Shown here in pieces: positions 3,415 to 30,050 of a DNA stretch of 64,000 bases. The stretch comes from Tetraselmis striata (taxonomy: Eukaryota > Chlorophyta > Chlorodendrophyceae > Chlorodendrales > Chlorodendraceae): positions 21,062-85,061 of the forward strand of contig VCJN01003400.1 in NCBI GenBank assembly GCA_006384855.1. The letters run 5' to 3'. The notes under the pieces were generated by a model that saw nothing but the letters and a program-made list of their open reading frames with translations, did not search any database and had not been told where the DNA came from. Numbering within the stretch: the stretch's first letter is position 1; each line of letters begins with the position of its first letter. A program made the translations under genes and the position numbers.

Positions 3415-6327
3415 ACCCCCCACCCCTTCCGCGTGTTTGGCAGGTTCAAGTGCAGCGTGTGCGCGGACCGCGACCTCTGCTCCACTTGCCTGCGCGGGCT
3501 GGTGAAGGCGAGGGTGCGGCGCTCACAGCAGCAGCAGGTTCGGGTGTCCCCCCCCCCCTGTCCCCCTGTCCCCTGCATGCGCTGCTCAGCTTGGCCGCCC
3601 CACTCGACGCACTCACCCGACCCGGCCCGCCATCCGTGTGCGGCCTGCAGGATGGGGGCCCAGATCCGTACGTGGAGCTGGAGCAGGCGGTGCCCTGCCT
3701 GGACCCGCGCCACAGGCACGCAGGCTGTGCCGCCCCCCATGCGTATGTGCGTGAGCATGTGTTTGCGAGGGAGAGGGGGCGCTGGGGGGATGGGGGGGGG
3801 GGGGGGGGGGGGCTGGCGGTGACCAATGTTCACTCGTGCTCACCAATAGCAGTATGTCCCCCACCCCCTCACACCCCTTTCCACTTGTCGCCTTGGCCTG
3901 GCGGCTGCCTGCTGGGTGGGTTGGCAGGTTTGCAAGGATGGCGGGGCCAGAGCGCGCCGTCCGACTGACAGGCAATGCTGCCAGCGGCGCGCTGGCGGCG
4001 CTGCGCGACTTCCTGGCGACCTTCCCGCCCTCACACGCCTCGTGCGCCGACCTCGCCTGGCTCGCTGTCGACCGTGACGAGCGCGCAGGCCAGGCAACCC
4101 CCCCTCCCCTCCCCTCCCCCCTCCGCCCAAGGCAAACCCCCGGGCACAGCGCCCTGCAATCCCAGCGGCAGCTCTCAATCCCCCCCCCCCCCCCTGCCCG
4201 CCCTTGTGGCAAAACTCAAACGTGCAGGTGGACGAGTTGGACCGCAACTCACGCAAGCCACTGCAGGCACGGGCTCCCTCCCCCCCCCCCCCCCCCCCTC
4301 CCTTGCCTTGCCCGCGTGCTGGATCTGGCAATGAGTGCGACCGGGGTGTGGGTGAGAGTGTGGGTGGGGGCAGGGAGGGAGGCGGGCCATGACATGTGAC
4401 ATGTGGCGGAAAAGAACAACTGTGACATCACCGGAAACCTCCCCCCCCCCCCCCCCCCCCCCCCGGCTCCACCTGCGTGCGCCCTGTTTTCGCGTTGCCT
4501 GACCTCGTGACATCCGCCGTGCACCCCGTGCAGCGACGAGTGGACAGGCTGCTACGCGCGTGGGAGTCCCTGCTGGAGGATGGCAGCGCCGCCATCACTG
4601 CAGAGAAGCTGGACCGCCTCGCCGCCGCGCACGGCGTGCTCAGGCAAGAACCCCCCCCCCCCCCCCCCCCCCCCCTTTACACCACCGCACTTGCCCTCAC
4701 ACCACAACCTCTACCCTCCCCCCCCCCCTTTACCGCGCTCTTACCACCTTGCACTCAACACCACCTCCAATCCCCCCCCCTTCCCCCCCCCCCCCCCCCC
4801 CCCGCCTCTCCCCAAAGCCCGGCAGCTCAGGCGCGTGCATGCCGCGCAGGGGCAAGTGGATGGCGTTCCCACGCCTTGCGGAGGTGGACGCCTGCTGGGC
4901 CGCCGTCGCCGAGGTACGAGATATCCCGCTCTCACCTCCTTCACCCCCCCGTCACACATCCCTCCCCGGGGCCTGCAACCGGCACAGGCATTGGTCTCTC
5001 AAGCACTGCCGCTGCGAGGTCCCCCCCCCCCCCCCCCCCCCCCCGTGCTTGGCAGTGGAACGGATGCTGCTGCCAGGTGAGAGGTGGGCGCTGAGGCGAT
5101 GCCTTGCTGCGCTGCAGGGGGTGGTGGGCGGGCGGCTGGGCCCGACCGCCAAGGTGAGACAGATGGACAGACGACTCGCCCGGCCGCTTGCCATGTGGGT
5201 GCGCCCAGAGTAGGGGGCTGAGCCGCCGCCGGTGTGCCACAGGTCAGCAGCGTCAGCCCGCTGAAGGACAACCACGTACTGCTGGTCACGGTTGCGGTGC
5301 GTCGCGCCCCCCCCACCAATACGCTGGAACAGCCACGCTGCTGGCTGGTTCCGCCACCACTGCCAGTGGTCACCTCTGACAACCCCCCCCCCCCCGGGCC
5401 CCCCCTGGTCCATCTCCCTTCCTAACCCTCGCGCGGCGCAGAACTACCAGGACCAGGCGGAGGTACAGCGCGTGGAGGAGGCACTGCGTGCCGCCCTGGG
5501 TGCGCCGCCTCCGCGGGCTACCCGCACAAAGCTCTGCCAGCGACTGAGGTTGCGGTGAAGGGTTTACAGAAATGCGCGTCTGCGCCGTCGCTTGCGCCGC
5601 GTTGCGCCTGTTTTGCGGGACCCGCTGTACTGCATTAATAGGGAATCACCGCACAATGGCTGCCATCGCCCTCACTAATCACAGCTCGAACGCCCACATC
5701 CACTGGGTATGGGGTCAGCACGCCGCCGCGGAGTCGCAAAGGGTGGAGGTGCTGGGAGCCCCTCGCCCTCGCCCCAGATACGATTGATCAACAGAGGCGA
5801 GTCCGGACCACATCGTGAGCACCGCGGGCAGCATGCTGGCGAACCAGGCAGGCAGAGGCAGGGGCAATTCGTTGTTGTTGGGGAGAGGGGGTGATTGAGG
5901 CACTTTGCCGGCCTCGCCGCCGCTCGCATTTGGCCAAGGTACACCCTGTCCCGCTCCTAGATCGCGGTGACGGGGGTCATGTGTGTACACACCCTCTCAC
6001 ACCGCTGACCAACGTCCCTGATGGACGCCGGCAACCTCCTGCGTCTGGCGAGACGCCCTCGTCAATGTTGCTCGTGCATGTCCGTTGCCGTCGGGAAGGG
6101 GCCGTTTGGCACAGGCAGTAGGAAGCCCCCCCCCCCCCCCCCCCGGCTTGACTTTCCCCCGTCCCCTTGACGGCCCGCGCACAGGCGGCCTGATGGCGGA
6201 CGCGCGCCTGCTGCTCAAGCCTGACATCTACTCCATCCTGGCCATCAACGCCCGGAACGAGTGGGGCCTGCGCCCCACGGTGCGCGTCGCCAGCTTGCGG
6301 GCGCCGCCGCCCGGCGAGGCGCCCTGA
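2659..6327 (+). CDS. ZZ zinc finger + UPF0696 (C11orf68/Bles03-like) protein, copy 1
   Basis: Eleven exons: 2659-2792, 3444-3537, 3651-3742, 3928-4093, 4228-4266, 4534-4643, 4850-4913, 5118-5153, 5243-5296, 5442-5499, 6185-6327. They sum to 990 nt (329 residues) with every phase matching. Residues about 25-75 form a ZZ-type finger, with CDGC joined across intron 1 to FKCSVCADRDLCSTC; the C-terminal His pair may be RHRH in exon 3. Residues about 115-325 follow human C11orf68 in order: FLATFPPS, LAWLAVD, AHGVLRGKWMAF, LGPTAKVSSVSP, LLLKPDIYSILAINARNEW. The human protein lacks the zinc finger. Biochemical function is unknown for the family; the ZZ finger suggests protein binding. Introns 1, 4, 5 and 6 have GC donors. 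I chose the first ATG that keeps the finger complete. It is convergent with the BBS9 exons downstream. Confidence 0.85.
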
Positions 6328-6805
6328 CAGCAGCGGCGCCGACATTGCGCCACGCTCACGGACGAACCCCCCCCCCCCCCCCCCCCCTCGGACCCAGCCG
6401 AAAGAGGTGGGGCTCGGGGCTCGACTCGAGCGCGTTGAGGGTGAAAGGCTGCAGGGACACACCGGTGGGAACTCCATGGGTCGGCGTTGCACAGCCGCCA
6501 TGGGCATGGCCTGCCGCCACTCGGCGCTCCCAACGGCATTGGCCCTTCGCCCCCAGCTGGGGGTGGTGGGCCAAGTCGCCGCGGTTCAAGAATCGTATCA
6601 ACGGCATGCCGGGGGACGTAATACCCTCCTTCAGCGTCACGCTTTGGGCACCCGAGACCATCTGCGCCGCCCTCGCCCTTGTCGAGCTCTCGTTGCAAGG
6701 GGCGCCCCGGGATGAGGCCGCCGGCTGCCTTGTGGAGTGCTTACTTACAGAGCCCAGTGCCTCCGCGGGGGGGGGGGGGGGGGGGGGGGGACCGCGGCGG
6801 TCTAG
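6328..6805. other. Convergent intergenic stretch, unit 1
   Basis: The gap between the ZZ-UPF0696 stop and the stop of the duplicated BBS9 exons. It holds a poly-C run, a poly-G run and a TTACA at 6745-6749 (TGTAA on the minus strand), a plausible poly(A) signal for the BBS9-side transcript. No gene is seen. Confidence 0.5.
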
Positions 6806-8511
6806 CTACGCGGCGAGCTGGCCGCCCTTGGAGAGGCGCTCCAGCACGAGGCCGATGTGCTTCCTCAGGCGGCTCGTGTCCGCCATCTGCGCCACTGGCG
6901 CCGGCTGCGCCGCCGACTCCTTGGCGGAGCGCGCCAGGCAGCTGCGCAGCAGCTGCGTCATCGCCGACTCGGTGGCCTCCTCCCAGCCGTGGAACTCGAT
7001 CTGCGCCCGCCGGGGACGGGGGGGGGGGGGGGTGGCGGCTGAGCCCAGGCAGAGCCATTGCGGAGCAGCGACAGGGGCGCCCAGACATGTCCACTGCAGA
7101 GGTACCGTGTTCGTTTTGTTGCGACTGTCTGCTCTCTCTGTACGCGTATGTAAAATCTATTGGAGACGGCGCGCGGGATGCCCTGGGGCGCAGCCTCCCC
7201 TCGCATGGGCAGACGAGCGGAGCCCCTCCCTCAGACCCTCACCCCCCCCCCCCCCCCCCCACCATCTCTTGTTTCTCTGGCACGGGGCTCTGGTGTGCGC
7301 AGCGCATGTTAGGGTTTCTGCATCTTAAGGGTTTCGTGATTTTGTGAGTGAACGTGTTCCCAGTGGGGAACGGGGCAACCGGCATGGTGTGTATTTGTTG
7401 GGCGCTCGCGCGGGGAAAGGGGCGGGGGGGGGGGGGGGGGGCTTGGAGGGCTTCCGGGCCCGACCTCAGCGTCCTGCCCGTTGGGCACCACGACGGTGTC
7501 CTCCACCACGGGGCTCAGGTGCGCGCGCAGCACCGCGTCCGCCTCCGCGTCCAGCTGGAAGCAGAAGCGTATCAGGAGCAGCAGCAGCTGCGTGGCGCCC
7601 GACAGCGCCGCCGCCGCCGCCTCTAGCACCGCCTGCGCCGCAGCGGGAGGGGCGCGCCAAGCATGCGGTGAGAAGTCCAGGGGGTGGGTAGGTGCGCTGC
7701 GCGCTGTCACCGCGCCCTCCGCCATTCTGCGAGAAGATGTTTGCCGGAGTGCGTGCCATCGGCATGAAAAGCGGCCCAATCACCCCCCGGCACCGTTCCA
7801 TGCGTATGAGTTTCACTTTTAACTGCGCCATCCGTGTTGTACACGAGGACTGCCCTCGTAGTGTGCACGCTATAAGTGCGCACTCCCACATACCCGGCCT
7901 CACGCAGGCGCCATCCATACACGACAGCGAGGCGGGCGCCAATGGGCTGTGTCGCACGAGCCCAGCTGACGCCCCCAGGGGTCCCCAACACTCTAGGTGC
8001 CATGCCGAGTTCTTGCATACCCAAGGGCGCGCCCAGTCGAGCATGGGAGCCTGCCTGCGCGGACCGACCTTATTGCGACTTTTCCAACCTGTCAGGACTT
8101 TTGTGGGATGCTGTATGAGTGTGCAGTAGGCGGGATTATATCGAAAGTGTGCACAATACAGCAGCCCGCAAAAGTCCCTACAGCTTGGAAAAGTCGCAAT
8201 AAGGTCCGCGCAGGCAGGTTCCCATGCTTGTTCACAGTTCCTGTTTTTTTTTTTTTTTTTTTGGGGGGGGGGGGGGGGGGGGAGGGGACCTGCTGCTGGT
8301 CCCACACGTCCGCCAGCTGCAGGATGTCGTTGTACGTGGCCTCCATCAGCGCGTCCATGTTGCCCAGCGGCGCGGGGTTGCGGTCTTTGAAACGCACAAG
8401 TAGCCGCTTCTGGATGCTGCGGAACTCTGCGGCGCGGTTGCTCAGCTGCCGCCGGGTGGCCAGCACCTCCCCCCGCGCCGCAAAGTGCGCGTCGATCACC
8501 GCCCAGTAGTC
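6806..8511 (-). pseudogene. Stranded duplicate of the last three BBS9 exons
   Basis: Minus-strand exons at 8511-8290, 7632-7465 and 7000-6806, equal in length (222, 168 and 195 nt) and nearly identical to exons 14-16 of the intact BBS9 gene at 13.7-15.4 kb. They encode the C-terminal helical part, with the QKRLLVRFKDRNPAPL and ERLSKGGQL blocks, and end in the same stop. The upstream 13 exons are absent because the duplication breakpoint falls in intron 13, so the piece has no start or promoter of its own. It is still open in frame, so it may be expressed from a cryptic promoter, but the simplest reading is a truncated by-product. One codon differs visibly: Glu here, Asp in the intact copy (GEVLATRRQ versus GDVLATRRQ). 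Confidence 0.85.
8041..8227. repeat. Foldback (MITE-like) element in the duplicated BBS9 intron 14
   Basis: Two arms of about 75 bp in inverted orientation, starting gcatgggarcctgcctgc and separated by about 38 nt, roughly 90% matched to each other. It lies inside an intron, encodes nothing, and has no clear target duplication. The same element is present in unit 2. Confidence 0.75.
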
Positions 8512-8560
8512 CTGCCGGCCCAGATTAGGCGCCAGATTAGTCCTGCCGGCCCAGATTAGG
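8507..8560. repeat. Junction repeat of the tandem duplication
   Basis: A 23-bp segment containing cctgccggcccagattagg occurs at 8507-8529 and again at 8538-8560, where unit 2 begins. It is a templated or microhomology footprint at the breakpoint. Confidence 0.85.
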
Positions 8561-9320
8561 CCGTTGCCCGAGATACGAACTAATAGGCTGTCGTAAAACG
8601 CTGCGTAGCATGTTTGGTCGGCTGAGTTCAGCGCCATCAACTGTTCTCGGCCTGAACGATGACGTGCCAGCATGGTCAGCTCCTTGCCGACGCCGTCCTC
8701 GTTGTTCACAAACGTGTCCTTGTGTACTTCGGCAACGCTTATTAGCAGACGACGCAACCAATCAATCGCAGGATGTCCGTCCTTTCCCACACGACTACGC
8801 GGCTCAGCCACCGACGTTGCTGGGTTCCGAGGTGAGCGTCTCCCTCGGCCTCTGTCGGGCGACTCGGGCTGCTTGGGAGCCGTGACGCGGTCGGCTAGGG
8901 GTGAGGTATGCAAGAGCGGCGGGTAGAGACGAGACGCGGTGGTCTTGTCTGAGCGATTCAAAAGCCGAAACTGAGCCGGATCTTGCAGCCTTCCTTTCTA
9001 TTTGCAGTGGGATATATATTATATATAGCCGAGGCTCCAACGACCCCCGCGGCCCACACGCCCTGGCCTAGTGTCGCTTGATCTTCCTCTTCCGTCCTTC
9101 CTGCAGTTGCCCCTTGGAGGGCAACGCTTCTTCAGCTGGTTCAGCTCTCGCGCAGCAGCTGTCGGGAGGCGTTCCCATAATCAGTCAAATTATTCGTAAC
9201 GCCGCCTGCTAAACGGAGAGCGCGAAACGCGCGCGGCCGTGCCGCCCCTTCCTTTTGGGGAACACAATTTCGCCGCCACTGCCACCAGCACAGCTCCGAA
9301 GTCGGCGAATAAATAGACCT
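8561..9320 (-). mobile_element. Mobile-element remnant, copy 2 (truncated)
   Basis: Leader and beginning of the coding part of the same element as at 1-2,488, brought here by the tandem duplication and cut at the duplication junction. Broken and incomplete. It should have the same age as the duplication rather than mark a separate insertion. Confidence 0.75.
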
Positions 9321-21941: not shown

Positions 21942-21950
21942 CCGCCAGAC
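21942..21950. repeat. Target-site duplication, left
   Basis: ccgccagac, repeated exactly at 28494-28502 outside the other end of the transposon. Confidence 0.75.
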
Positions 21951-22035
21951 GAGAAAAGCGCAATATACTAGCGTAAACGGTAGAGGCCACTATACTTCAC
22001 TTTTGACTCACTGAAAATGGGACAATTTACTAGCT
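21951..22035. repeat. Terminal inverted repeat, left
   Basis: From 21965 onward (tactagcgtaaacggtagag and on) 71 bp match the inverted right end with a single mismatch; the outer 14-17 bp match less well. An atgggacaa motif occurs within each repeat. Confidence 0.85.
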
Positions 22036-22479
22036 CACCCGCCAAACAATGTACTACAGACATACATATACAGCGCAAAGTACTGTACTCGCCGTCGCCG
22101 CCGCCATCCCTTATCCCGCCCACTCGAGTGGAGGGGGGGCTGCGCAGTACTACTAGTCGCTACTAGTATACCTTTCCACCACCGCCAAGGCTGCCCAGAA
22201 CCCAAACCGGGCCGTGGCAGACAGTTAGCGACAATTCATAGGTAAGGATCCCACGCGACACAGGCATGCAGGGTCTTAACTTACACAAAAAGGCGCGAAC
22301 GCCCGGATCCGTGACATGAACGGACTCCGCCTACCTTCGACGTAGGTCTGCACGGCTGGTGAGTAGGCAGCTATAGAGACTTGCAGCTCGCGCTATCGGT
22401 TACTGCCATGCAGGCTGGGGTAGGTCCCATCGCGATGGAGGTGCCTAGCAACCCCCCCCCCCCCCCCTCCCCCCGCTTC

Positions 22480-25358
22480 CCCCCCGCACGCGGCCACCCT
22501 CTCGAGAGTCTGCCAGCCGGTCCGCCCGACCCGCTCGACCGAGGGCTTCGTCTGCTCGACGTGCCCCCATCCAACGCTCTCGTCGCGTGGCGGCCCTTGC
22601 CGTTGGACCTAGCCGGGCCGATACGCAGTCAGTGGCGGGTCAGGGGCAGGGCCCGCCAGCGGCAGACATGTCGCCGAGCTTGGCTGTCGCTGGCGATGCG
22701 GGCGAGGGCTGGCCTACGCATAGCGATAGCCAGGCTGGGGAGAGCGGCGGGCAGGGAGCCGGCGCGTCGGCAGCCACACCCTGTGGACTTGCGCTCGCAT
22801 TAGGCGGGGGTGGGGGCGTGCCGGATGCCAGCGGCTCGGAGGCTGGTAAAGGCGCGACAACCACCATGCTCACGGTAAGAGCTGTGGAATAGGCGGGATG
22901 GAGGGCGGGGGGCGGGGGGGGGGGGGGGGGGGGGGGGTTGTGGCCGTGCTGTGATGTAATGCTGTGGTAGTGTGGTGCACCTTTGCATTTTTATACGGCT
23001 TGCTAATTATGTCGCCATTACACGTTCGACTGACAGCCCCCGACTCCAAAAACTAGCACGAGCAACGCACTCCCTGCCCCCGCTGCCGACGAGTTGCAGC
23101 CGGCCTCAAAAGAAGCAACGCCAGTCGCCAAGGTGGGCGGCCTTGCTGCGATGTAAGGTTGCTGTCCTGGGCTTCTGTTGTTTCCGGCTTGCTAGTTATG
23201 TCGCCATCGCGCGTTCGACCCACAGCCCCCGATTGCAAAGCACGAGCGACGCACCCCCTTGCCTTGCTGCCGACGAGTCGCAGCCGGCCTCAAATGAAGC
23301 GACGCCAGTCGCCACGGTGGGCGGCCTTGCTTCGATGTAAGGCTATGCTAGGCTGTTTTAGTTTTCGACTGTCTAATTATGTCGCCATCGCACGTTCCAC
23401 CCACAGCCCCCGAGTGCAAAACGTGGCACAAGCGACGCACCCCCTTCGCCTTGCTGCCGACGAGTCGCCGCCGGCTCGCATGCGCCACCAGTCGCAAGGG
23501 TGGGCGGCTTTGCTGCGATATAAGGTTAAGCTAGGCTTTTGCAGTTTCCGGCTTGCTAATTATTATGCCGCCATCGCACGTTCCACCGATAGCCCCCGAG
23601 TCCCAAACCTTGCACGAGCGACGCATCCCCTCGCCCGATGCTGACGAGTCGCAGCCGGCTTCAACCGAGGCGACGCACGTCGCCAAGGCGGGCGGCCTTG
23701 CTGCGACATAATGATGTTATCCACATTTGCATTTTTATGGCTTGCTAAATATGTCGCCATCGCGCGTTCGATCCCCCCCCCCCCCCCCCCCCCCGACTGC
23801 TAGTTGCACGAGCGACGCACCCCCTCGCCTTGCTGTCGGCGAGTCGCAACCGGCCTCAAAAGAAGCGACGCCAGTCGCAAGGTGGGCGGCCTTGCTGCGA
23901 TGTAAGGCTATGTTGAATTTTTTTAGTTTCCGACTTGCTGATTATGTAGACGCCATCGCACATTCGACCCATGCCTCCCGACTGCAAAATCTGGCACCAG
24001 CGACGCACCCGCTGCCCCCGCTGCAAAAGGCTTGAACGACCCTCACGGTTTGCTCACAGTTGCGGCAATCCTTTGGTGACGCCTGTGCAGGCCGGGAGAA
24101 GCAAAAAGGGGGAAAAGGCAAGGGCAAACGCGGGCAGGGTGGTGCTGGCTCCAAGCGCGGCCGTGAGGAGCGATCCCGCCGCCGATTATTGCCACTCCCG
24201 TCACTTCCTCTTCACCCACCTCCCCCGGAGCACCGCACAAGTCCGTCCCATCCGCTGCAGTCAAGCCGCCGCGCTCCTGGTCCATCGTTCCCCAGGACGT
24301 GAGGAAGAGGGCGGAGCGCAGGATCGCCAGGATCTACTATGGGGTGGGCACCGCTGAAGTGGTGCCGGGCGCAGCGGAGCCTGAGACCCTGGTGATGTAT
24401 GCAAAAGTGCCCGCCATAGATAAAGGTGGCTGCACTGCCGGCACCTTCTGGACTCGTCGCAGTCGCAGGAAACGTTGTCGCCCGCAGAAACGCACTTCAG
24501 TCGACACCAAACTCTGTGGACGGCTTGCAAGAAGCGACAAGGTTGGGGCAGCAATCCTCGCCTGCTGTTGGTATACGCGACAATGCGCGCCTGGGTGACC
24601 TGGTACTCGGAGTGGCAGTCGTGTTGTATGGTAGTCGTGTTGACGCACCCCCTCGCGTGCCTGCTGCCGAGCCGCAGCCCGCCTCGACAAGGGCGACGCG
24701 AGTCGTCAAGGTGGGTTGGCCCCGTTGCACGTGTTGCCATTGCGCACCTATTACTTTTACGGCTCGCTAATAGAGTCGAAATCGCACGTTGGCCCCGCAT
24801 ACCCCGAGCGCAGAGGCTTGCCCGAGCGACGCACCCCCTCGAAGCGCTGCTCCCGAGTCGCAGCCGGCCTCGACAGGGGCGCCTCATGTCGCCAATGTGG
24901 GTTGGACCCGCTGCACCTTTGTTGCCGTTGCGCACTTGTTACTTTTACGGCATGCTAATTGAGTCGCCATCGCACGTTGGCCCCCGCAGACTCCAAGCGC
25001 AAAAGCTGGCCCGAGCGACGAACCCCCTCGCGGCGCTGCTCCTAACCCGCATGCCAAACGCTCTCGTCGCGTGGCGGCCCTGGCCATTGGACCTCGCTGG
25101 GCCGATACGCAGTCAGTGGCGGGTCAGGGGCAGGGCCCGCCCGCGGCACACATGTCGCCGAGTTTGGCGGCTGCCGCTGGCGATGCGGCCGAGGGCTTGC
25201 CTACGCCTAGCGATAGCCACGCGGGGGAGAGCGGCGGGCAGGGAGCCGGCGCGTCGGCAGCCACACTCTCTGGACTGGCGCTAGCATTAGGCGGTGGTGA
25301 GGGCGTGCCGGATGCCAGCGGCTCGGAGGCTAACGGCGTGACAACCACCATGCTCATT
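22480..25358 (+). CDS. Gene-like multi-exon region inside the transposon (unknown product)
   Basis: Not recognised. The best exon is 24990-25358: AG before it, GT after it, 369 nt open in phase 0, encoding an Ala/Gly/Ser-rich stretch with a basic AKRSRR patch. A near copy ends at the donor 22874/22875, 2,484 bp upstream. It is followed in phase by a 96-nt exon (23037-23132) giving a 32-residue Pro/Ala-rich segment ending KEATPVAK. Between them an open block (about 24170-24415) contains RSWSIVPQDVRKRAERRIA and YYGVGTAEVV, then a GT donor, and another open block ends near 24,711. Some downstream exon-like units do not keep frame, so a complete translatable transcript is doubtful. It could be a captured host gene fragment that has since been amplified. 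Confidence 0.3.
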
Positions 25359-27640
25359 GTAAGAGATGCGGAAAAGGCGGGATGGAGGGCATGGTGGAGA
25401 GGGGGGGGGGGGGGGGGGCTGGCCGTGCTGCGATATAATGTTGTGGTGCACCTTTGTATTTTTATACGGCTTGCTAATTATGTCGCCATTACACGTTCGA
25501 CTGACAGCCCCCGACTCCAAAAACTAGCACGAGCAAAAGCACTCCCTGCCCCAGCTGCCGACGAGTTGCAGCCGGCCTTAATAGAAGCAACGCCAGTCGC
25601 CAAGGTGGGCGGCCGTGCTGCGATGTAAGGTTATCATGGGCTTCAGTTGTTTTCGGCTTGCTAATTATGTCGCCATCGCACGTTCGACCCAACAGCCCCC
25701 AATTGCAAAAGCTGGCACGAGCGACGCACCCCCTTGCCTTGCTGCCGACGAGTCGCAGCCGGCCTCAAATGAAGCGACGCAATTCGCCAAGGTGGACGGC
25801 CTTGCTGTGACGTAAGGCTATGGGTTATGGGCTCATGTAGTTTCCGGCTTGCTAATTATTATGCCGCCATCGCACGTTCCACCCACAGCCACCGAGCGAC
25901 GCACCCCCTCGCCTTGCTACCGACGAGTCGCAGCCGGCTTGCAAGAGGCGCCGCGAGTCGCCAAGGTGGGCGGCCTTTCTGCGAGGTAAGGCTATGCTGG
26001 GCTGTTTCAGTTTTCGGCTTGCTAATTATAATGTCGCCATCGCACATTCGACCCACAGCCCCGAGTGCAAAAGCTTGCACAAGCGACGCATCTCCTCGCC
26101 CCCGCCAACGAGTCGCAGCCGCCCTCAAAAGAAGCGACACACGTCGCCAAGGTGGTCGGCCTTGTTGCGACATAATGTTGTTGTCCACCTTTGCATTTTT
26201 ATGGCTTGCTACTTATGTCGCCATCGCACGTTCAACCCACAGCCCCCGAGCGACGCACCCCCTCGCCTTGCTGCCGACGAGTCGCAGCCAGCCTCAAATG
26301 AAGCGACGCCGGTCGCCAAGGTGGACGGCCTTGCTGTGATGTAAGGCTATGGGTTATGGGCTCATGTAGTTTCCGGCTTGCTAATTATTATGCCGCCATC
26401 GCACGTTCCACCCACAGCCACCGAGCGACGCACCCCCTCGCCTTGCTGCCGACGAGTCGCAGCCACCGGCGCCGGGAGTCGCCAAGGTGGGTGACCTTAC
26501 TGCGATGATGTAAGGCTATGCTAGGTTGTTTCGTTAGTTTCCGGCTTGCTAATTATGTCGCCATCGCACGTTCGTCCGACAGCCCCCGAGTGCGTCGCTC
26601 GTCGCTGGTGCTGGCACGAGCGACGCACCACCTCGCCTTGCTACCGACGAGTCGCAGCCGGCTTGCAAGAGGCGCCGCGAGTCGCCAAGGTGGGCGGCCT
26701 TTCTGCGAGGTAAGGCTATGCTGGGCTGTTTCAGTTTTCGGCTTGGTAATGATAATGTCGCCATCGCACATTCGACCCACAGCCCCGAGTGCAAAAGCTT
26801 GCACAAGCGACGCATCTCCTCGCCCCCGCCAACGAGTCGCAGCCGCCCTCAAAAGAAGCGACGCACGTCGCCAAGGTGGTCGGCCTTGCTGCGACATAAT
26901 GTAGTTGTCCACCTTTGCATTTTTATGGCTTGCTACTTACGTCACCATCGCACGTTCGACCCACAGCCCCCGAGCGACGCACCCCCTCGCCTTGCTGCCG
27001 ACGAGTCGCAGCCGGCTCGCAAGAGGCGCCGGGAGTCGCCAAGGTGGGTGACCTTACTGCGATGCTGTAAGGCTATGCTAGGTTGTTTTAGTTAGTTTCC
27101 GACTTGCTAATTATGTCGCCATCGCACGTTCGTCCGACAGCCCCCGAGTGCAAAAGCTGGCACGAGCGACGCACCACCTCGCCTTGCTACCGACGAGTCG
27201 CAGCCGGCTTGCAAGAGGCGCCGCGAGTCGCCAAGGTGGGCGGCCTTTCTGCGAGGTAAGGCTATGCTGGGCTGTTTCAGTTTTCGGCTTGCTAATTATA
27301 ATGTCGCCATCGCACATTCGACCCACAGCCCCGGAGTGCAAAAGCTGGCACAAGAGACGCATCTCCTCGCCCGCCGCCAACGAGTCGCAGCCGCCCTCAA
27401 AAGAAGCGACACACGTCGCCAAGGTGGTCGGCCTTGCTGCGACATAATGTTGTTGTCCACCTTTACATTTTTATGGCTTGCTACTTATGTCGCCATTGCG
27501 CGTTCAACCTACCCACATCCCCCCGACTGCTAGCTGCACGAGCGACGTACCCCCTCGCCTTGCTGCCGCATAGTCGCAACCGGCCTCAAAAGAAGCGACG
27601 CCAGTCGCAAGGTGGGCGGCCTTGCTGCAATGTATCCGTT
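22960..27640 (+). repeat. Tandem array of about 20 exon-intron-like units (about 185 bp each)
   Basis: Each unit holds a block of about 91-97 nt lying between a cacag acceptor and a caag/gtgggcgg donor, followed by about 90 nt with a ttgctaattatg branch-site-like motif. Branch-like motifs fall near 23000, 23191, 23369, 23552, 23733, 23934, 24764, 24951, 25470, 25658, 25848, 26020, 26204, 26379, 26545, 26738, 26928, 27101, 27290 and 27478, so spacing is 166-201 bp within each block. The full-length exon block is 96 nt and open (DESQPASKEATPVAK type), but several units are 91, 92, 95 or 97 nt and would shift frame. Sub-blocks near 25.8-26.2, 26.6-26.9 and 27.1-27.5 kb are closer to each other, showing higher-order duplication. 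Confidence 0.8.
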
Positions 27641-27700
27641 GGTTCGACCGCAGGTGACTGCTACCTGCACGCGGAAATTATTTGACGAGGGGCAGCATAC

Positions 27701-28192
27701 CTTTGTAGCCGCCGAGGCATACAAAAATCGCCATTTAGTAGGGAGGCCTGAGATCACCGACTTGACCGCTTTGTAGTCGGCATATTCAGTGTGGCCGTCT
27801 TCGGCAGGAAGCCAGTGACTACCGATATGGTGTAGTTGTACCTCATCCTCAGCCGGGGTGGGCCGTGGGGCGCCTGCAACTGCCGTGTCGGAACGCCTAG
27901 CGCTGCCTTGCATGCCGGGGCTGCCTGCGGCACCCTCTTTAGACGCCACTACTTCGGCCAAAGACGCAGTGGGGCGCTGGGCACCCCCCCTTAACGACTC
28001 TTCCAAGGTCGCAACATCACGCAAGGCTGCCCCACGCGAGGAGACGGGCCGGCCAACGGCAGACCCGATACAACTTGTTGCCATCTCGAGAAGAACTTCC
28101 CTACTCATCATTCCCTCATGATCTTGAATGAGTTCCCGCACCTCCCCGAGTGCGGCGCGAAGTTCGTGTATAGCCCGCAAGGGGGAACCCAT
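27701..28192 (-). CDS. Open first exon near the transposon's right end (unknown)
   Basis: Minus strand, ATG at 28192, 492 nt open in phase 0 to AAG followed by gtatgc, a plausible donor. The 164 residues begin MGSPLRAIHELRAALGEVRE, a helical stretch that could be a coiled coil, then Ala/Ser-rich linker, then HHIGSHWLPAEDGH and SGLPTKWRFLYASAATK. I recognise no domain. Position and direction (inward from a terminal repeat) fit a transposon-encoded gene. The next exon was not found; the array lies downstream. Confidence 0.4.
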
Positions 28193-28407
28193 ACTGACCC
28201 CGCAGCCCTACTTCCTACTTGTTTCAGCGAGAACTGTTAGGCAGGTGTGGGAAACGGAGAACTGCCCCGACTTCGCGGCAACCTACCTACCTACCTACCT
28301 TCGGAGAACCTGCCTCGACCCGCCGCCTCTGCCTCGTTCCGCCGCCACCAAGTGATCATGTACTTTGTGCCAGTACACGCGAACCCTAAAAACCTGCACA
28401 GGGTTTA

Positions 28408-28493
28408 AAGCTAGTAAATTGTCCCATTTTCAGTGAGTCATAAGTGAAGTATAGTGGCCTCTACCGTTTACGCTAGTATCTTGTCCCATTCCC
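28408..28493. repeat. Terminal inverted repeat, right
   Basis: Inverse of 21951-22035. The atgggacaa motif occurs twice here, once at the very end and once at the inner border. Confidence 0.85.
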
Positions 28494-28502
28494 CCGCCAG
28501 AC
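28494..28502. repeat. Target-site duplication, right
   Basis: Exact second copy of ccgccagac. Confidence 0.75.
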
Positions 28503-28902: not shown

Positions 28903-30050
28903 GTTACGGAATCGCACGAAGTCTTGAGCCGCCTCAACAGCTGTAGAGCCACGGTAAAACTTGGACTGTAGGAAGTGGGTTAATACATCGAGGTGCTTGA
29001 CGCCACGAGTAGGCTTCCACGTGCCTTCACTCGAGACGTTGTAAGCGTATTTATTGCCATTTCACTTTGAAAAGTAGTTCAGTGCCCATAGAGTTGTACG
29101 CCACACCAAGGATGTCTTCAACGTACAACTTGTGCGCGTCGAGCAGTGCAATCGGTTAAGTAGGGTTTGCAGCCAATGCTTCTGGGCCTTCGTACCATTT
29201 CTCCAACATACTTGCGCATACTACGTCGTGGATAGTAACGCTTGTCGGTAGCTTAACACGTAAGGCTACATAAGGGGACAAAGCCTCGGTAATTTGCAAA
29301 GGTCCAATGTAGCGGTCAAGTAGTTGAAGGAATTTTAGATGATGAGCCTTTAATTTAACCGTGTCGCCAACCTTGAAAAGAACCATTATCAGATTGCGAG
29401 TAGCCATAGTAGTCATACGAGATTGAGCTCCGCGTACACAATCTTATTGTGCAAAACGATGTAACTCCTGAATATAGTGTACGTGCCCGGGTAGAGTAGA
29501 ACGAGTAGGCTCGGTGTCTTGGAACATTGCCGAGATAGGAGTAATATAGGCTCGAATCCCGCCAATCTGGTCTTGAATGGGGACATATCGTCGTCGCCGT
29601 ATAGACCGACGTCGCAGCGTTGAGTGCAAACTCGCAGTTGAGAGGTGGTTTACCCAATCGTCGTGCAAGGGGTACACATGGCATCGAATCACGTGTTCAA
29701 AAGGTTTGGTCAAAAGGTTTGTTCAAATAAAGTTTGGTCCGTTTTGTCTGTCCGTCCGTTTTGGGGTGTAATTTTGGAGAGATACTCAATTTAGTATCCA
29801 AAGTACGGAACAGATTATACCAAAAATCACTCATAAACCGAGGATCGCGGTCAGAAACCAACTTTTCCGGTAGACCAAAATGACGACATACCGCGCAATG
29901 CATGATGCGCGATAATTTCTTCGCCTTCGTAACGGTCTTCGTAGTCGGCTCCACAATAACGCGTTTAGACAGCAGGCATATAACTACCACTTCAGATAGA
30001 AATAGACAAGAAGGGACCAACCACTTGAAAACATTTACAAAGCAGCCCAC
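28903..30050 (-). mobile_element. Ty3/gypsy-type LTR retrotransposon fragment
   Basis: Fossil fragment on the minus strand. 29697-30050 contains an integrase-core segment (FGLPEKLVSDRDPRF, HPKTDGQT). 29156-29416 is the integrase C-terminal part (FKVGDTVKLKA, LLDRYIGPLQITEA, VHD-type ending). 28.87-29.05 kb shows a gag-like stretch (HFLQSKFYRGSTAVEA). Polymerase parts and LTRs are missing here. The fragment is broken. Confidence 0.75.

Follow-up and report, generated by a model that had tools for sequence, protein, structure and literature searches.

Maize MuDR/Mu transposons generate 9-bp target-site duplications, have long inverted ends and two convergent genes, and have non-autonomous derivatives that are moved in trans. 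A duplication of about 9 bp is characteristic of the Mutator superfamily, the transposases of which have a C-x2-H motif after the second D and a SWIM-type zinc finger. Among Mutator-like elements (MULEs), Pack-MULEs are not known to contain transposase sequence. Here, we describe a 6543-bp Mutator-like transposon at positions 21951..28493 of a 64,000-nucleotide stretch of Tetraselmis striata DNA (hereafter the window; assembly GCA_006384855.1, contig VCJN01003400.1, positions 21,062 to 85,061, forward strand). We are confident that it derives from a DNA transposon of the Mutator superfamily and is itself young and non-autonomous. Its family resembles MuDR/Mu in having 9-bp duplications, long inverted ends, a convergent second strand and non-autonomous derivatives. 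The second strand here differs from maize mudrB: nothing in Pfam matches it, and a methyltransferase-like domain lies at its end.

Long Mutator terminal inverted repeats contain transposase binding sites and promoters (PMC3310237). As in Pack-MULEs (PMC13317346), Mutator ends here flank a non-autonomous interior; unlike in Pack-MULEs, the traced interior consists of the family's own exons and a tandem repeat. An accessory gene is also found in the Kaonashi and VANDAL MULEs, and the VANC protein of VANDAL directs the hypomethylation of related elements (PMC13317346). The accessory frame of 526 amino acids (aa) described below differs from Kaonashi and KI-MULE in having no Ulp1/C48 match.

Methyltransferases of algal transposons are already published. 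Sola1-1_Ec32 of Ectocarpus encodes ParB and an N4C/N6A methyltransferase on the strand opposite to its transposase (PMC12477816). The likeness is that of a large algal transposon with a methyltransferase, or here methyltransferase-like, gene opposite the transposase strand. The difference is that the present transposon is a Mutator rather than a Sola element, and the ParB domain has no match among the frames scanned. Retrotransposons with cytosine methyltransferases, and DIRS elements with Dam-like domains, are further cases in which a mobile element carries a DNA methyltransferase of its own (PMC5890265). Those are retrotransposons, with enzymes of other methyltransferase classes; the methyltransferase-like domain here is borne by a DNA transposon, and it also closes a pol that is probably of Gypsy type. 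As for the modified bases, in Chlamydomonas N6-methyladenine (6mA) is found on expressed genes and 5-methylcytosine is confined to transposons (PMC12695648). Among the papers searched, judged by titles and abstract openings, we recognised none that describes a methyltransferase gene in a Mutator element; a 2011 chapter by Iyer and others, cited in PMC12477816, may cover it.

The element, its ends and its copies

The inverted repeats extend over 21951..22035 (plus strand) at the left and 28409..28493 (minus strand) at the right. The strong core, 21961-22035 versus 28409-28483, is 97% complementary across 75 nt. The outermost 10 bp are a poorer match, GAGAAAAGCG versus GGGAATGGGA. Directly outside the ends, the same 9-mer, CCGCCAGAC, is found at 21942..21950 and at 28494..28502. 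The inverted ends and the exact 9-bp duplication had been noticed in the original prediction, made from the sequence alone, and both are confirmed.

To what extent are these ends repeated in the genome? With up to 3 mismatches allowed, a 35-base core of the end repeat is found 371 times in the 224-Mb assembly, 186 times on one strand and 185 times on the other. The reversed core has no match; the end repeat is therefore not a chance occurrence. Pairing by eye gives at least 33 elements, which measure about 1.0 to 13.3 kb from core to core. An exact 9-bp duplication flanks 15 of the 16 copies in a first set, which includes the window copy, and 19 of 30 other copies, i.e., 34 of the 46 copies checked. 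When one mismatch is allowed, the second figure becomes 22 of 30, compared with 2 of 870 pairings of left and right 9-mers taken from different copies. Shifting the ends by up to 3 bases gives an exact 8-9 bp duplication to 5 more of the 30 (control, 3 of 870). The flanks differ among the copies checked, except for the pair C167/C207 (L089-L092), which has the 9-mer and neighbouring bases in common and is probably one locus assembled twice, as a duplicated or haplotype contig. The original prediction had named two findings that would speak against it, common flanks beyond the 9-bp repeat and a transposase of another superfamily in relatives with the same ends; apart from the C167/C207 flanks, neither was encountered.

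Identity between copies was gauged at 16 loci taken from the best matches. Of these, 12 are of the window type and two of the long type; the remaining two belong to the window copy. The 12 come from 11 other window-type copies, and their identity to the window is 97.7-99.8% over best alignments of 1.6-2.35 kb. Given how the loci were drawn, these figures establish that a young group exists; they do not date the family as a whole.

The target site is itself repetitive. With the flanks of the element joined through a single 9-mer, 38 other places in the genome match with an identity of 70-82%; they were obtained by scoring 40 of the 57 candidates, two of the 40 being the window's own flanks. The junction is crossed by 37 of the 38. 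That is, the element is inserted in a member of a repeated family, other members of which have no element there. An 8-bp gap beside the 9-mer, seen in both of the joined-flank alignments inspected, makes these two places paralogous rather than exact empty sites. One of the 37 places lies within the window, at 1109-1386 on the minus strand. An integrase-core fragment lies at 29697-30050 on the minus strand, some 1.2 kb beyond the right end; its score against PF00665 is 24.8 bits, below the cut-off of 32.6.

Three further observations concern individual copies. On contigs C142, C293, C770 and C1699, the end repeats are regularly spaced at about 4.9, 4.9, 8.5 and 7.4 kb, respectively, C293 having only two; this suggests tandem arrays of element sequence. 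The C2003 copy (L057/L058) is flanked by CAATATAAC and GTTACATTG, which show no direct match and are near reverse complements, as if the ends of two copies, or an inversion, had been joined. The C40 copy (L027/L028), of the window type, contains a nested Gypsy-like retrotransposon (element coordinates 7499-9049 and 5701-6537, both minus). By eye only, one frame of this retrotransposon has INPPYDE, another methyltransferase-like motif, followed by a protease-like LDSGA.

The transposase gene and its remains in the window

Long relatives with the same ends include C407, C423, C705 and C2740, of 12.0-13.4 kb, and C860, of 7.8 kb; one intact outer end and the duplication are missing in C705. Their transposase gene reads inward from the right end. 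In C407, three predicted exons yield a spliced product of 1067 aa, which scores 27.8 bits against PF10551 (MULE; cut-off 27.6) and 26.4 bits against PF00872 (Transposase_mut; cut-off 21). Transposase relatives at 53% identity are likewise above the PF10551 cut-off. The original prediction had recommended a search for a full relative; C407 and its kin carry the transposase gene, and the assignment to Mutator is supported by both models, if narrowly by the first. In two of the five transposase-bearing copies examined, C407 and C2740, the three predicted exons can be read without interruption to the same stop; C860, C705 and C423 have an early stop in exon 3. TGTAA, the usual poly(A) signal of green algae, starts 85 nt past the stop codon in both open copies; an algal setting, as originally predicted, is plausible. 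CYHH, at the start of exon 3, was spotted by eye in the predicted transposase along with CWVH, CWIH and CDCDEFRRYRQCSH, and the Pfam SWIM model has no match in the spliced C407 product. No transposase relatives were found in viral contigs.

A tblastn comparison of the C407 transposase with the window gives two matches and no other at E 1e-3. Residues 1-165 align at 28192-27698 with 89% identity (E 1e-84); the zinc-finger part, residues 604-705, aligns at 24707-24393 with 63% identity (E 8e-31). The former match is transposase exon 1 (27701..28192, minus strand), which has 164 open codons and, just beyond them, the same GTATG donor as the long copies. The latter is a relic of exon 3 with a SWIM-like zinc finger (24393..24707, minus strand). 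The right-end segment of the element (27635..28493, minus strand) is 96-97% identical to five transposase-bearing relatives and ends within transposase intron 1. The original prediction had seen an inward-facing open exon and no transposase. The exon is indeed open and faces inward, but it is the family's own transposase exon 1 rather than captured cargo, and the absence of a transposase was an error.

On their plus strand, the long copies have, besides the 526-aa frame, an array of repeats, other frames and one of 266 aa that contains the methyltransferase-like domain. These are putatively parts of one second gene, gene B. Its first exon is present in the window at 22570..22874 (plus strand, left edge approximate), with a frame at 22587-22874 and a donor GT at 22875. 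The long relatives share this frame, most gaps in the alignment being multiples of three in length, and have the same GTAAGA donor. Segment 22573-22934, i.e., this exon and its flank, is directly duplicated at 25057..25418 (plus strand; 85-94% identity), 2484-2487 bp further on. Five downstream frames of the C407 second strand, including the 526-aa and methyltransferase-like frames, have no match in the element or elsewhere in the 64-kb window.

The window element therefore retains both ends, the first exons of both genes, a scrap of the zinc-finger exon and a tandem array. We suggest that the transposase of the long relatives moves it in trans, as follows. The transposase would bind the end sequences common to both, excise the element and reinsert it via a 9-bp staggered cut. 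The two first exons may have been retained because they adjoin the ends, where the binding sites and promoters would lie.

The methyltransferase-like domain of the second strand

The domain at the end of the second strand matches phrog_799 (E 9.5e-7, in 3 of 9 members). Its motif I, D-P-x-x-G, and the string V-T-S-P-W-F are invariant in nine aligned sequences, which form three groups of close copies. Relatives of the domain were not found in phages, plasmids, viral contigs or prokaryote genomes, each searched with one query at one sensitivity. A relative does exist in what is probably another kind of mobile element of the same assembly. A weaker match on C2631 (L134, C2631:133000-138600; minus strand 3563-5599) closes a long frame in which an integrase core (PF00665, E 3.6e-9) and a PHD finger (E 1.4e-6) precede the methyltransferase-like domain. 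In a profile comparison with the Mutator-borne domain, the C2631 domain gives a probability of 99.9 and E 1.1e-31, and the two motifs are invariant in a five-sequence alignment that adds it. The integrase and the domain order indicate that the C2631 frame is probably a Gypsy-type pol. Six further methyltransferase-like matches sit in frames longer than 1000 aa.

The domain is recurrently linked to the transposase. Linkage was counted among the best 130 transposase matches and the best 148 methyltransferase-like matches, in which related and split copies count separately. A methyltransferase-like match lies at most 8 kb downstream on the opposite strand, i.e., in convergent orientation, for 67 of the 130; pairs in other orientations number zero among these best matches; the chance expectation is 1.4. 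Counted by contig, the convergent pairing is seen in 59 of 112. Within the genome, the transposase has relatives at about 53% and 36% identity, and the pairing is found in all three lineages (28 of 51, 5 of 7 and 22 of 31, from 89 of the 130 matches, picked by hand).

The 526-aa accessory frame also has relatives, at 37-38% identity, that are still open; none were found in viral contigs. An H/D/Q/C pattern seen by eye in this frame prompted a comparison with the C48/Ulp1 proteases, which was rejected: none of six members matches Pfam, its copies are absent from 20 PF02902 matches, and hhalign gives a probability of 0.1.

The ratio of nonsynonymous to synonymous substitution rates (dN/dS) was used to gauge selection. 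Against C2453, it is 0.11-0.16 for the transposase and 0.24-0.26 for the accessory frame; for the methyltransferase-like domain, it is 0.23 between C2453 and C155 and 0.18 between C155 and C626. In the distant pairs the synonymous sites are near saturation, and the C407 versus C2453 value for the domain is not computable. Within the core family, comparisons with C407 give 0.61-0.90 for the domain, 0-0.53 for transposase exon 2 and, for the accessory frame, 0.44-0.73 in four copies and 0 and 0.31 in two near-identical ones. The accessory frames of C2453 and C491 give 1.54, on six changes. Purifying selection between the lineages is indicated by these sequence comparisons, with caution in view of the near-saturated synonymous sites and the higher core-family values.

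Is the domain an enzyme? The strongest alternative is that it is a degenerate, non-catalytic DNA-binding domain, and we regard this as a substantial, though not the favoured, possibility. Motif IV reads TSPW in all nine aligned sequences, departing from the usual [DNS]PP[YFW]; searches of Pfam, NCBIfam and PDB returned no methyltransferase for the domain; and the core-family dN/dS is as high as just noted. A loss of catalysis is less easily reconciled with the invariance of D-P-x-x-G and TSPWF across three lineages and the pol-borne relative, or with the low dN/dS between C155 and C626. If active, the domain may modify DNA of the element itself or of related ones, thereby influencing silencing or mobilisation. 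A more specific and tentative proposal, on balance doubtful, is that this Mutator lineage has kept, across transposases as little as 36% identical, a convergent gene for a mobile-element-specific amino-methyltransferase with the unusual motif IV TSPW, exchanged with Gypsy-type pol genes of the same genome. The 6mA or N4-methylcytosine placed on its own copies, window-type copies included, would keep them permissive or mark them for transposition.

The interior reconsidered

Much of the remaining interior is filled by a degenerate repeat on the plus strand with a period of about 185 bp (184-187), as follows: 22996..24010 (about 184 bp, with splice-site-like unit edges), 24642..25042 (186 bp) and 25467..27634 (about 187 bp, 11.9 copies). 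Parts of this array match the repeats of the long copies at 70-88%. Seventeen units were located by pattern, with both edges in 15. The length of the exon between the edges is divisible by three in 6 of the 15, where 5 are expected by chance, and an array of exons that keep a reading frame is rejected on that count. The original description of the array as spliceable-looking stands for the GT and AG edges of the units, and not for a frame kept across them.

The unit edges might be taken to mean that window-type elements are an independent lineage, with a functional spliced repeat protein encoded by the array, rather than simple derivatives. The left part of the element, at 80-88% identity to the long copies compared with 96-97% for the right 859 bp, would fit such a history. 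With exon lengths near the chance expectation and the two other units lacking a recognisable donor, we consider this improbable.

Several points weigh against the reading that we prefer, i.e., a young non-autonomous Mutator derivative with a methyltransferase-like gene in its parents. The exact 9-bp duplication is missing at the expected place in 12 of 46 copies, and in 6 of 30 no exact duplication appears even when the ends are shifted by up to 3 bases. The PF10551 match exceeds its cut-off by only 0.2 bits, with a single spliced product, that of C407, scanned. The sampling of identities from best matches is biased towards young copies. The methyltransferase assignment draws on one PHROG match, in 3 of 9 members, together with motifs. 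The window's exon 1 gives no signal of selection: the ratio of nonsynonymous to synonymous differences per site (pN/pS) is 0.98-1.43 against three long copies and 0.74 against the window-type copy C75, in a set of five same-length comparisons from which the frame-shifted C897 was set aside. Exon 1 may therefore be a mere passenger. Finally, the long relatives tested provide no source for segment 24035..24405; it is 98-100% alike in 40 scored places in the genome (of 132 candidates, one of the 40 being the window).

That segment, and a host parent that could be hidden among the candidates beyond those 40, would suit a true Pack-MULE with cargo captured from host genes, as originally predicted, but we think this very unlikely, and reject it for the traced parts, since the open exon and the left exon belong to the family's own genes, transposase sequence lies inside, and some of the array is matched by repeats of the long relatives. 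Segment 24035..24405 itself may be a captured piece.

As a young non-autonomous derivative, the window copy by itself is an ordinary MULE, and a caution that an open exon within inverted repeats need not be a captured gene. Its parents are less ordinary. In them, a methyltransferase-like partner recurs in convergent orientation to a Mutator transposase, and the same domain terminates a pol of probable Gypsy type. The idea that mobile DNA can write its own base modification, here apparently in an alga, can thus be put to the test.

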